Notes under the pieces: model-generated | What the model was told of the DNA's origin: nothing | Database searches by the model: none | Seen by the model: only the letters and a program-made list of their open reading frames with translations | Program-made: the position numbers and the translations under genes | Source of the DNA: a virus | Virus record (IMG/VR): IMGVR_UViG_3300029258_004101 | Span: 1 to 22,056 of that record | Reading direction: 5' to 3' (one strand) | Length of the DNA stretch: 22,056 nucleotides | Shown: one piece after another, positions 18,572-22,056 of the stretch | How positions within the stretch are numbered: the stretch's first letter is position 1 | How the letters are laid out: every line of letters begins with the position of its first letter

Positions 18572-19048
18572 ATGCCCGCACGCATAACAGCATCGTTTGT
18601 CGTCCCCCCAGGCTATACTCCCGGCGATTACGCCGTGCTGCATGCTAGCGCCGCCGGCGGCGCCATCGACTGGGAAACCCCCATAACCGGCCGCAAACTC
18701 GATCTGTTTCCAAACGGCCTGGGCATCCACGGCTGGGGTCACGCCCCCTGGGGCCACTTCCCCTGGGGCCACGGCTATAGTGACGGCCCGCTCGGCTGGG
18801 GCCATCTCCCCTGGGGCCACTTCCCCTGGGGCTATGGCACGGCCCTGATCGAGGATTACTTCGATGTCACCGAATGCGGCGATTACGTGTGCGCCTTTGC
18901 CTGTTACGATTCGCTCGGCAACGCCCACGAAGGCACCCCCGGCCAGGCAACCGCCAGCGTCCACGTAGCCCCGCCGCCGCCGACGGATTTACAGTTTACC
19001 TCTTACAACAAAACGACCGACACATTGGTCCTGACCCTTACGCAGTGA
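18572..19048 (+). CDS. W-G-H repeat tail protein, possible receptor-binding component
   Basis: AGAGGA at about 18560-18565 serves the ATG at 18572. Residues 55-88 hold six W-G-H/Y units, in two triads (W55, W60, W65 and W76, W81, W86) whose spacing is exactly 5 within a triad and 21 between triads, embedded as GWGHxPWGHFPWGH. The N-terminus (ASFVVPPGYTPGDYAVLHAS) and the later region (about 95-158, CGDYVCAFACYDSLGN then PPPPTDLQFTSYN) look like Ig or fibronectin type III strands. Cysteines cluster at the start of that domain (C-x4-C-x3-C). It is the last gene of the tail module, the usual position of fibres, and no other fibre gene is visible. Surface adhesion is therefore plausible, with clustered His residues possibly binding metal. 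The 3' end stops abruptly after one Pro-rich linker and one strand. Confidence 0.8.
   Translation: MPARITASFVVPPGYTPGDYAVLHASAAGGAIDWETPITGRKLDLFPNGLGIHGWGHAPWGHFPWGHGYSDGPLGWGHLPWGHFPWGYGTALIEDYFDVTECGDYVCAFACYDSLGNAHEGTPGQATASVHVAPPPPTDLQFTSYNKTTDTLVLTLTQ
18734..18835 (+). repeat. In-gene repeat coding for W-G-H units
   Basis: Six copies of a TGGGGyCAy-like unit occur, grouped as two triads. Within each triad the unit recurs every 15 bases, as in CCCTGGGGCCACTT, and the triads are 63 bases apart. The repeat lies in frame throughout, so it encodes the peptide repeat and is not an intergenic insertion. Confidence 0.9.
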
Positions 19049-19074: not shown

Positions 19075-19094
19075 TTTGACAAGTAAATAGCGAC
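19075..19094 (+). repeat. Left flanking repeat of the right-end accessory cassette
   Basis: TTTGACAAGTAAATAGCG (19075-19092) resembles TTTGACAACTGAATATCG at 21654-21671 (15 of 18 identical, same orientation). AAATAGCGAC (19085-19094) is also the exact reverse complement of GTCGCTATTT at 21647-21656. The two sites bracket the three accessory genes. A 10-base match is expected by chance many times in 22 kb, so biological meaning is uncertain. Confidence 0.35.
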
Positions 19095-19127
19095 CCCCTG
19101 GGGCCGATGAATTGCTAAAAAAACCCC

Positions 19128-19156
19128 TTGCCCGGCCCGTCCATTTATGGTAAAAT
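19128..19156 (+). promoter_or_regulatory. Promoter of the first accessory membrane protein
   Basis: TTGCCC (19128-19133) and TAAAAT (19151-19156) have exactly 17 bases between them, and the -35 is preceded by CCC as in the other promoters of this window. The TG dinucleotide just before the -10 (TATGGTAAAAT) adds extended -10 character. Transcription should begin at about 19163-19164, the ATG of the gene itself, so the mRNA may be leaderless. Confidence 0.6.
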
Positions 19157-19163
19157 GCAGTTT

Positions 19164-20267
19164 ATGACCGAAGAAATGGACAACAAACCACAAGATCGCT
19201 CAGATCGGCGGGAACTAAAAGCAATAGCAAAACGTCGCTTTCTGCGTCTACTTATTGTCTGGGGTACTATTACCATTTTTTTTGTTTTTTTTACTATGGC
19301 CCTTTTTTTTACCCTTAAGATAAATATCGAGAACATTCCACCTGTGTTAAGCTCCGCTTTACCCTTGATCAGCATCATGACTGGGACAATCTTAATTTCA
19401 GTCTACACGGTACCGAGGCTCCTAAAATACCTTCAACCGGATTCCCAAGAGACATCGCCAGATGAACCATCCTCGCTCTCTTATGAACACGATCTCTTTA
19501 GCCTTCGCCAGGGAATCACCGCGATCGGGGATGAAAATAGAAAAATGCGGTCTGAGTTATTGCAACAAGTCCACGATTTGTACCAGCGCCTCTCGGGCAT
19601 GGAGGCTCGCCGAATCATGTTGAGCGATGCTGAAAAGAAAGGCGTAGTTGACACAATCAAGACCAACCTCCAGTCTGAAACCGCGCAGGCCGTGCTGGCT
19701 GAAATCGAACATAAGGTGGAAGAACGTACCAAACCTGACTCGCGGGCAGAGCACATCGGCCAACATTTTGAAGCGACTCGCAAGCGGCTACATAGAGAGA
19801 TATTAGCCCTTACCAAGCGAGGCAATCTCAACCTGATCCTTGGTGTCTTTATAACAATTCTCGGCCTCGGGTTCCTGATCTATTACGTCCTATTTGAAAA
19901 CAAGTCTGCCGAAAATGGTCCGTGGCCATTTATATCGCACTTTGCACCTCGGTTGACCCTTGTAGTTTTCATAGAGATATTCGCCTACTTCTTCCTGAGC
20001 TTGTACAAGTCCAGTCTCGCTGAGATAAAGTATTTTCAAAATGAGATGACAAATGTTGAGTGCCGCTTCATCGCCTTGCGTACCGCTATAATTTCAGAAT
20101 ACGAGGATTCTGCCAAACAGGTAATTACAGAACTCGGCAAGACAGAGAGAAACCACGTCTTAGAGAAAGGCCAAACGACCGTAGAACTAGAGAAGGCTCG
20201 TTTAGAGAAAGACATGGTATCCGACCTCGCCCAGAACGCCTCTGAGACGCTAAAAAAGAAGTCTTAA
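19164..20267 (+). CDS. Four-segment membrane protein with coiled coil, accessory
   Basis: The ATG at 19164 is used because it coincides with the predicted transcript start. In-frame ATG 19155 and TTG 19128 lie inside or upstream of the promoter. The 367-residue product has hydrophobic segments at about 27-51, 61-83, 222-245 and 264-285. Between pairs two and three is a long charged coiled-coil region (about 100-215). After the last segment is a helical cytoplasmic tail (SSLAEIKYFQNEMTNVECRF onward). I do not recognise the family. Its lower GC content and A/T-rich codons differ from the structural genes, suggesting separate acquisition. As a promoter-bearing gene at the end of the late region it is a candidate for a lysogenically expressed gene such as superinfection exclusion or anti-phage defence, but no defence motif is visible. 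Confidence 0.85.
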   Translation: MTEEMDNKPQDRSDRRELKAIAKRRFLRLLIVWGTITIFFVFFTMALFFTLKINIENIPPVLSSALPLISIMTGTILISVYTVPRLLKYLQPDSQETSPDEPSSLSYEHDLFSLRQGITAIGDENRKMRSELLQQVHDLYQRLSGMEARRIMLSDAEKKGVVDTIKTNLQSETAQAVLAEIEHKVEERTKPDSRAEHIGQHFEATRKRLHREILALTKRGNLNLILGVFITILGLGFLIYYVLFENKSAENGPWPFISHFAPRLTLVVFIEIFAYFFLSLYKSSLAEIKYFQNEMTNVECRFIALRTAIISEYEDSAKQVITELGKTERNHVLEKGQTTVELEKARLEKDMVSDLAQNASETLKKKS

Positions 20268-20304
20268 CGAATACCCGATTGTTTCCACTATTAGAATAGA
20301 CCCC

Positions 20305-20667
20305 ATGACCGAACAAACCGACAACGAACCAAAACTCACCCTGGCCGAGGCCATCAAAAGGCGAGATGCTATTGAGGCTAACCCAGAAGGAAACGACGCA
20401 CTTGAGCAAGAGATAGAAAAAGCGAAAGAGCTTTGTGTCGATCTAAATCTCTCAACAGATACCCCTCGCGGAGAAGCGCGTAGGCAAACGAAGCTCTCAG
20501 AGTTACTTGATAAGATAGATGCCTGGATCAGAGATGAACGATCCGTCCAATCCGATCAGCACGCAAAGAGACGTTTCTGGCTAGGGATCATTTTAGGCTT
20601 TATTGGCGGTGTAATCATTGCTCAAATATCTGCCATCATTAAATATTTTTACTCGCTCTTTAGCTAA
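20305..20667 (+). CDS. Tail-anchored small membrane protein, accessory
   Basis: This 120-residue protein has a charged, helical N-terminal part and a single C-terminal hydrophobic segment at about residues 90-115 (FWLGIILGFIGGVIIAQISA). It should be inserted with most of the chain in the cytoplasm. The first residues (MTEQTDNEPK) resemble those of the upstream gene (MTEEMDNKPQ), suggesting the pair was acquired or evolved together. TAGAAT at 20292-20297 looks like a -10 box and would place the transcript start at or next to the ATG, but no -35 is clear. No ribosome-binding site is visible. Function unknown. Pairing with the preceding multi-segment membrane protein is the best lead. Confidence 0.8.
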   Translation: MTEQTDNEPKLTLAEAIKRRDAIEANPEGNDALEQEIEKAKELCVDLNLSTDTPRGEARRQTKLSELLDKIDAWIRDERSVQSDQHAKRRFWLGIILGFIGGVIIAQISAIIKYFYSLFS

Positions 20668-20693
20668 CCCCCCTTCTCCCCAACCCCCAACCA

Positions 20694-20769
20694 GCCGATG
20701 CGGGCGGCAGCAACCAGTCTAGCCGCCTGCCCGGCAGTCACTACCTGCCGAACATTTTTTCGCATCGGC
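20694..20769 (+). promoter_or_regulatory. Nested inverted repeats upstream of the methyltransferase
   Basis: The 155-base gap between the accessory membrane protein and the methyltransferase has no gene. GCCGATGCG (20694-20702) pairs with CGCATCGGC (20761-20769). Inside, GGCGGC (20703-20708) pairs with GCCGCC (20722-20727), and CGGCAG (20732-20737) pairs with CTGCCG (20745-20750). The last stem is followed by AACA and TTTTTT, which looks like an intrinsic terminator. A three-way junction RNA or an alternating terminator/antiterminator switch is possible, and transcription through it would control the methyltransferase. Confidence 0.5.
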
Positions 20770-20806
20770 CTTTTCGAACTACCCGTTATGTTAACGCAGC
20801 AACCAG
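20707..20806 (+). repeat. 11-base direct repeat GCAGCAACCAG
   Basis: GCAGCAACCAG occurs at 20707-20717 and at 20796-20806, 89 bases apart. The first copy spans the loop of an internal stem, and the second lies 16 bases before the methyltransferase start. It may reflect a small duplication or a protein-binding site. Confidence 0.55.
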
Positions 20807-20809
20807 AGA

Positions 20810-20824
20810 ATGGGAAGTACCCAT
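20810..20824 (+). promoter_or_regulatory. Hairpin covering the methyltransferase start
   Basis: ATGGG (20810-20814) pairs with CCCAT (20820-20824) across the loop AAGTA. The second arm includes the A and T of the start codon at 20823, and the first arm and loop include the GGGAAG that could act as ribosome-binding site. Folding would therefore hide both elements. The stem is only 5 bp. Confidence 0.35.
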
Positions 20825-21608
20825 GGCAACTTTATTCCCCTGGCTCGGCGGCAAGTCCCGCCAGGCCGCCCGCCTTTGCCGGCTCTTACCCGATCACGCC
20901 TGTTATGTCGAGGTCTTTTTCGGCGCCGGCAGCGTCTTTTTCACCAAGCCCCGCGCAAAGGTCGAGGTCATCAACGACATCGACGCTCGCCTTGTCAACC
21001 TGTTTCGCATCGCACGAGCTCACCCCCGCGAGCTGATCCGCCAGCTAAGGTTCCAGACCGCCGGCCGCCGCGACTTCGACGACTACAAGGCCCAGCCAGG
21101 CCTCACCGACATCCAGCGAGCCGCCCGCACCTGGTTTATTTTGAAGTGCGCCTTCGGCGGCACCGGCGGCAAATCCTCCGCCACATTCGGTTACGCCGCC
21201 ACCGGCTTCCGTGGCCTCCGGCGTGCGTCCTTTGGTGTCTTGCTCCGCTGTCATCGCCGGCTCGACGGTGTCTATATCGAAAACCTCGACTTTGCCGACC
21301 TGATCGCCCGTTACGATCGGTCGCACACGCTGTTTTTTTGCGACCCTCCTTACTGGCAGACAGCCGATTATGGAATCAGCTTCGAGTGGCCCGATCACCA
21401 GCGGCTCGCCAAAGCGCTGCGATCTATCAAGGGCAGGTTCCTCTTGACCATCAACGACCACCCCGACATCCGCACGCTCTACCGGGGCCTGGTAATAAGG
21501 AAGGTATCGGTCAGCTACTCCGTAGCCCGTGACAAGCGTCCCAGTGCCCGCAACCGCACCGAGCTGATAATCGCCAACTACCCGCTGCCCCGGCAGCGGA
21601 CAAAATAA
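20823..21608 (+). CDS. D12-class adenine-N6 DNA methyltransferase
   Basis: The product transfers a methyl group from S-adenosylmethionine to adenine N6 in DNA. The motifs are clear: FPWLGGKSR at residues 5-13 (SAM-binding glycine loop), VEVFFGAGSVFF at 29-40 with F-x-G-x-G-S, and catalytic DPPY at 174-177. Length (261 residues) is normal for Dam-like enzymes. GATC is the typical target in this class, but specificity cannot be read from the sequence. Codon use returns to the GC-rich style of the structural genes. The start at 20823 has only a weak GGGAAG and lies in a small hairpin. A terminator follows at 21613. In phage biology such enzymes protect the phage genome from restriction or act in regulation. 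No companion restriction enzyme is present. Confidence 0.93.
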   Translation: MATLFPWLGGKSRQAARLCRLLPDHACYVEVFFGAGSVFFTKPRAKVEVINDIDARLVNLFRIARAHPRELIRQLRFQTAGRRDFDDYKAQPGLTDIQRAARTWFILKCAFGGTGGKSSATFGYAATGFRGLRRASFGVLLRCHRRLDGVYIENLDFADLIARYDRSHTLFFCDPPYWQTADYGISFEWPDHQRLAKALRSIKGRFLLTINDHPDIRTLYRGLVIRKVSVSYSVARDKRPSARNRTELIIANYPLPRQRTK

Positions 21609-21671: not shown

Positions 21672-22056
21672 CCAGCCGGAGATTTTGGAAATCCCCCGAA
21701 ATCCGGCCAGACAGTGTCTATCTACGCCAAAAACGATGTCCGAACCGATGTCCGATGTCCGCAAAATATGTCCGCTGGCCCCGCCGTTTTTTGTTGGTTT
21801 CAGCGTCCATAACTCTAGTATTAAATACCCCTTAACGGCTCTTTAACCGCGTCGGCCTTTTCCGCCACCTTCTGGCCGCCCGGTGTGATTTTACCCCGAT
21901 TTTACCTGTTTCCGCCACTTTGCTTTTCGGCCAATATTCACCCGCCGCCCGCCTCCAAAATCCCCTTTCACGCCCTCCAATCCCACGATTTCCCCTCGAT
22001 TCCCGCCTATTCCCACCCATCTCCGCCCTCCGCCATATCCCCTGTCCGCTTACACC
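21672..22056. other. Right edge without a convincing gene; pyrimidine-rich tract
   Basis: This stretch contains only short, poorly coding open frames. From about 21880 to the edge the + strand is strongly enriched in C and T and poor in G, with many TCCC and CGCC words (for instance TTTCCCCTCGATTCCCGCC). Runs of this kind resemble the C-rich leaders seen before genes elsewhere in the window, so a gene may begin beyond the edge. A boundary of the phage genome is another possibility. I see no attachment-site repeat that would settle it. Confidence 0.4.
21735..21774 (+). repeat. Cluster of ATGTCCG repeats
   Basis: GATGTCCG occurs at 21735-21742, 21747-21754 and 21754-21761, and ATGTCCG again at 21768-21774. 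That is four copies in 40 bases, all on the same strand, with start-to-start spacings of 12, 7 and 13 bases. Another nearby phrase, CAGTGTCT at 21712-21719, is only weakly similar. Such iterated words could be protein-binding sites. Confidence 0.7.

Follow-up and report, generated by a model that had tools for sequence, protein, structure and literature searches.

A low-GC moron at the variable right end of a Mu-like phage carries a member of a widespread, undescribed family of predicted four-helix membrane proteins

Temperate phages are known to encode inner-membrane proteins involved in exclusion, and P22 SieA and HK97 gp15 are established examples of such prophage-encoded factors (PMC10883804). 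Moreover, prophage cargo hotspots are recognised as reservoirs of antiviral genes, and the transmembrane proteins located there are usually read as suicide effectors (PMC9122126). The P2 old/tin hotspot and the integrase-side cargo of e14 type (PMC9122126) occupy variable slots between two conserved phage genes. Phage morons are, in turn, marked by foreign composition, precise absence from related phages and a promoter of their own, typically but not universally accompanied by their own terminator; they are expressed in lysogens whose late genes are off. Here we describe a locus of a putative transposable phage which resembles these systems in several respects, and we assess what its main product may do in the lysogen.

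The window, i.e. the whole stretch of DNA analysed, corresponds to an IMG/VR record and comprises 22,056 bases. Its genes include those for terminase, portal/head morphogenesis and head proteins. Since its nearest relatives, with portal identities of 53-57%, encode MuA-like (phrog_310) and MuB-like (phrog_296) genes, the window most probably covers the structural half of a Mu-like transposable phage and extends to the right end. Repeated GATGTCCG, ATGTCC and ATGTCG motifs occur at this end (21731-21774), as well as in the right-end regions of the relatives L259 and L177, and are possibly transposase-binding end sites. Two backbone genes frame the locus under study. On the left is the last gene of the tail module (158 aa; 18572..19048, +), with orthologues at 46-78% identity in L177, L257, L258 and L259, whose product displays tandem repeats of the WGHxPWGHFPWGHG type when read from the sequence. 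On the right is a Dam-like DNA adenine methyltransferase (20823..21608, +; phrog_56, E 3.7e-81), with orthologues at 58-61% identity in L177, L178 and L259. The methyltransferases at the right end differ among the relatives of the window: a C5-type-looking gene is found upstream of the last tail gene in L257 (10160-10960), and two Dam-like genes and one C5-type-looking gene follow each other in L178 (5671-9608), the C5 typing being by eye in both cases.

Between the two backbone genes lies an insert of 1601 bp with a GC content of 46.4% (19092..20692, +). Homology with L177 stops at 19091 (AAGTAAATAGC) and restarts at 20693 (AGCCGATGCGGGCGG), and the insert stands in place of about 10 nt of the empty site. 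L177 and L259 have tail genes and a methyltransferase that mostly show 46-63% identity to their counterparts in the window. Both lack the insert, and their methyltransferase comes directly after the last tail gene, with an RNA element between them. The slot is variable, because L257 and L258 hold other small genes at this position. In this it is comparable to the P2 and e14-type hotspots, from which it differs in being the right end of a Mu-like phage and in the putative nature of the defence role of its cargo.

The insert holds a predicted promoter and two genes, P0001 and P0002. Their GC contents (45.9% and 45.5%, compared with 63.9% for the tail gene and 61.6% for the methyltransferase) bear out the lower GC reported in a preliminary description of this DNA, which had also considered a promoter-bearing pair at the end of the late region to be typically placed for exclusion or defence genes. 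The latter view holds insofar as the insert is accessory, bears a predicted promoter, lies past the final tail gene of a temperate phage and is cleanly missing from relatives; it fails in treating the two genes as a system, as discussed below. The foreign composition, the precise absence from the syntenic relatives L177 and L259 (boundaries 19091/20693) and the insert's own sigma-70-like promoter, predicted by a consensus scan, are shared with phage morons. Unlike in typical morons, the insert contains no terminator of its own: the U-tailed hairpin at 20732-20750, examined as a candidate, is part of a backbone RNA element common to L177, L178 and L259, although it could nonetheless terminate the cassette transcript. 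P0001 and P0002 thus form a moron, a low-GC cassette of 1601 bp with its own predicted promoter at the variable right end of a Mu-like phage. We hold both this status and the family membership of P0001 given below to be well supported, with little room for doubt.

The RNA element (20693..20775, +), which constitutes the right flank of the insert, is predicted to fold into a conserved three-way junction with an internal U-run (MFE -38.8 kcal/mol, z -5.3). It features 6 compensatory pairs among 4 phages (the window, L177, L178 and L259) and has no Rfam match; it may act as a terminator, or as a leader that regulates the methyltransferase.

The predicted promoter within the insert is of the extended sigma-70-like type (TTGCCC-17-TGG-TAAAAT; 19128..19156, +), and its -10-like box, TAAAAT (19151-19156), is placed exactly 7 nt before the P0001 ATG. 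A second -10-like box, TAGAAT (20292..20297, +), precedes the P0002 ATG by the same distance but has no recognisable -35, so that a good upstream partner exists for the first box alone. Both boxes had been noted in the preliminary description and were recovered at that spacing; a TANNNT at a gap of 7 is found for P0001 and P0002 only, among the 23 window genes examined, and neither gene has a Shine-Dalgarno sequence. Leaderless mRNAs starting from a -10 box directly before the start codon are established in some bacteria (PMC12340547, PMC3898074). Judged from sequence alone, the gap-7 boxes and the missing Shine-Dalgarno allow for such mRNAs, and leaderless transcripts of both genes are possible. 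A leaderless start was rejected as a trait of the P0001 family, as the arrangement occurs at 11 of 115 loci, compared with 16% in a shuffled background.

The claim that the two proteins share their N-termini also proved sound. MTEEMDNKPQ and MTEQTDNEPK have 5 identities within residues 2-10, and their BLOSUM62 score of 32 is beyond chance, being reached by only 29 of 400,000 random gene-start pairs. The DNA resemblance is confined to the -10 box and the sequence following it up to about codon 11, which fits a short 5' cassette, duplicated or gene-converted, shared by the two genes.

P0002 (20305..20667, +) is an orphan of 120 aa whose single TM helix, at the C-terminus, resembles a tail anchor. 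It lies on the same strand as P0001, 37 nt downstream, and this adjacency, the common box spacing and N-terminus, and the insertion of both genes together would suit a true two-component system (e.g. an effector with a small membrane regulator), formed recently in this phage through duplication of the 5' cassette. The proposal of a paired system was checked by looking for co-occurrence elsewhere, the refuting condition named in the preliminary description. Family libraries, viral contigs, phages, plasmids and P0001-family loci gave no detectable relative of P0002, and neither did 294 genomes of one phylum, although this genome search included no positive control. A conserved pair was therefore rejected, P0002 having no relative at any P0001-family locus. 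Furthermore, the same-strand genes downstream of P0001-family members are heterogeneous. A two-component system is for these reasons very improbable, and P0002 would be a passenger, not a conserved partner, its 5' end being duplicated.

P0001 (19164..20267, +) is a 367-aa membrane protein with four predicted TM segments, belonging to the phrog_5157 family (families A1-A3). Its residues 203-366 match the C-terminal half of phrog_5157 (PHROGs v4) with an E-value of 6.5e-36, and they include the FFL, EIKYFQNE, TERN and KGQTT motifs. PHROGs gives no function for phrog_5157; here the family is widened to include plasmids, integrative and conjugative elements (ICEs) and chromosomes from many phyla, and is provided with a structural model and a motif. 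In profile-guided scans, genome contigs yielded at least 80 relatives and viral contigs 62, attributed by record titles to Pseudomonadota, Bacteroidota, Verrucomicrobiota, Acidobacteriota, Planctomycetota, Myxococcota and other phyla. Members are carried by prophages, ICEs and plasmids, including a Leptospira plasmid, and also by chromosomes of many phyla. Carriage is patchy, with 1 strong match in 149 genomes of one phylum and one subtype of the family in 71 of the 5,426 complete Escherichia coli genomes; the E. coli homologues include WP_000653747 (APEC O1) and WP_001080914 (CFSAN061772). In L072, L142, L148 and L262 the family copies seem to be split into two open frames, and L145 has two tandem copies, which suggests gene turnover.

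P0001 is covered by no model in Pfam, NCBIfam or PADLOC, and a comparison of 107 family members with Pfam and PADLOC (2023) returned weak, scattered matches of single members. SLATT/DUF4231 two-TM effectors resemble P0001 in the long helices flanking a TM hairpin, and 1 of the 107 members matches DUF4231 weakly (E 0.0018). Membership of P0001 in this group was rejected on an hhalign probability of 0.2%, a value which refers to the DUF4231 subfamily alone and to a small alignment of 3 sequences. A literature search by PHROG number and protein accession found no paper on the family, and no member with a tested function was found. On sequence grounds, P0001 thus represents a widespread, undescribed family of predicted four-helix membrane proteins with no name in Pfam, NCBIfam or PADLOC.

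The AlphaFold model of P0001 (pLDDT 82.8) is all-helical, and features in order a TM hairpin, a cytoplasmic coiled region and two very long helices which comprise a second TM hairpin and its cytoplasmic extension. Together with the positively charged residues, it points to an N-in/C-in topology. Searches with the model gave nothing at E <0.001 in PDB or BFVD (best Foldseek E-value in PDB 0.27), and VIA-align matches with Z of about 10 cover long-helix hairpins only, in a range also reached by unrelated long helices. In 99 aligned homologues, R208, G227, F276-F277-L278, Y290, N293-E294 and N330 are invariant. Residue 271, an acidic position in the middle of TM4 (codon 19974..19976, +), is E or Q in 98% of them (E in 87%, Q in 11%). 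A conserved cytoplasmic region at about residues 288-339 (20025..20180, +), reading IKYFQNEMTN..E ... TERN..L.KGQTT in P0001, includes the invariant Y290, N293, E294 and N330 and corresponds to the family motif EIKYFQNE(M/L)TN…TERN…KGQTT. The periplasmic loops vary within the family, next to a conserved buried E271 and invariant cytoplasmic residues.

This pattern bears on whether P0001 acts as SieA does, i.e. by jamming the ejection conduit of related phages from the inner membrane of the lysogen, with no cell killing. P22 SieA and HK97 gp15 provide a precedent (PMC10883804), the position and promoter of P0001 agree with it, and P0001 resembles SieA in that both are inner-membrane proteins with several TM segments, encoded by temperate phages. 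SieA is, however, a protein of 162-164 aa with 3 TM segments (PMC10883804), compared with the 367 aa, 4 TM segments and long cytoplasmic helices of P0001, whose conservation is in TM3-TM4 and the cytoplasmic face rather than in the periplasmic loops. Moreover, the family is found in many phyla and in unrelated phages, whereas such exclusion is usually narrow, and no PHROG other than phrog_5157 matches P0001 at E <0.01. We consider a SieA-like role distinctly unlikely.

The genomic surroundings of the family are those of cargo in many cases. A tyrosine integrase, in most cases at position +1 and on the opposite strand, is the one neighbour that recurs; no partner is constant, and the downstream same-strand neighbours vary. 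Among viral contigs of 15 kb or more, 16 of 45 have the family member within 2.5 kb of a contig end, compared with 6.6 expected (p 4.5e-4), an enrichment which is approximate because contig ends are often predicted prophage borders. In an E. coli e14-like prophage, the family member is located between icd and intE, directly after a Cap15 CBASS operon; it lies between the early genes and the integrase in another E. coli prophage and past the tail genes in further ones, and an E. coli ICE also holds a member. These slots are comparable to those of the P2 old/tin and e14-type cargo. The icd-intE slot of E. coli Ecol_545 (L167:3166-4212) is occupied by a different, unrelated and uncharacterised membrane protein of 348 aa. 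A protein encoded 17 nt after the closest bacterial homologue of P0001 (L015:8914-9864) has, by eye, a SIR2-like N-terminus (VLGAGASCPYGFPSGRDL) and no Pfam match.

Enrichment of defence genes next to family members was rejected against a control at 5 kb: 41 PADLOC families (130 proteins) were counted near the members and 36 (113 proteins) at 5 kb, in a coarse tally of families rather than proteins. Some members are located among housekeeping genes. P0001 might alter host envelope physiology or stress tolerance to the benefit of the lysogen, as a non-defensive lysogenic conversion factor: the gene stands alone and also occurs, with no defence neighbours, in ICEs, on plasmids and between housekeeping genes, and it has a very weak similarity, below the cut-off (E 0.002), to the mycobacterial stress protein PspM. 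The edge and integrase-side positions and the e14-like slot shared with CBASS fit defence cargo better, and we regard such a conversion role as rather doubtful.

The reading we favour, at a probability of roughly 0.45, is that P0001 is a lysogen-expressed exclusion or abortive membrane effector. It fits the predicted promoter, which would be independent of late-gene control, the predicted membrane location, the cargo positions, and the conserved buried acidic residue and cytoplasmic face. In this mechanism, the insert's own promoter would drive P0001 in the lysogen regardless of late-gene control, and the protein would reside in the inner membrane with both termini in the cytoplasm. Upon infection by another phage, the conserved cytoplasmic hairpin and the TERN/KGQTT loop would sense a cytoplasmic event. 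The TM3-TM4 core, with its buried E271, would then permeabilise the membrane or otherwise abort the infection, in a manner similar in principle to RexB. The empty site, the own promoter, the patchy carriage, the integrase and edge positions, the Cap15-CBASS neighbour, the ICE and the published precedent of prophage hotspots count in favour of the effector. Against it are PADLOC families no commoner nearby than 5 kb away, the lack of any clear PADLOC, Pfam or PDB match, the members among housekeeping genes, and the lack of a conserved sensor or enzyme partner in the family. Known membrane effectors, e.g. RexB, act together with such a partner. A broader proposal, namely that P0001 founds a phylum-spanning group of single-gene defence effectors, in which the hairpin would sense infection and gate a pore through E271 with no separate sensor enzyme, is in our judgement unlikely.

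Given the clean empty site, the right end of these Mu-like phages is worth exploring for more cargo. The E. coli homologues make the family tractable in the laboratory; 71 of the 5,426 complete genomes of this species carry one subtype. Should the P0001 family indeed protect lysogens, current catalogues would lack a single-gene exclusion system.
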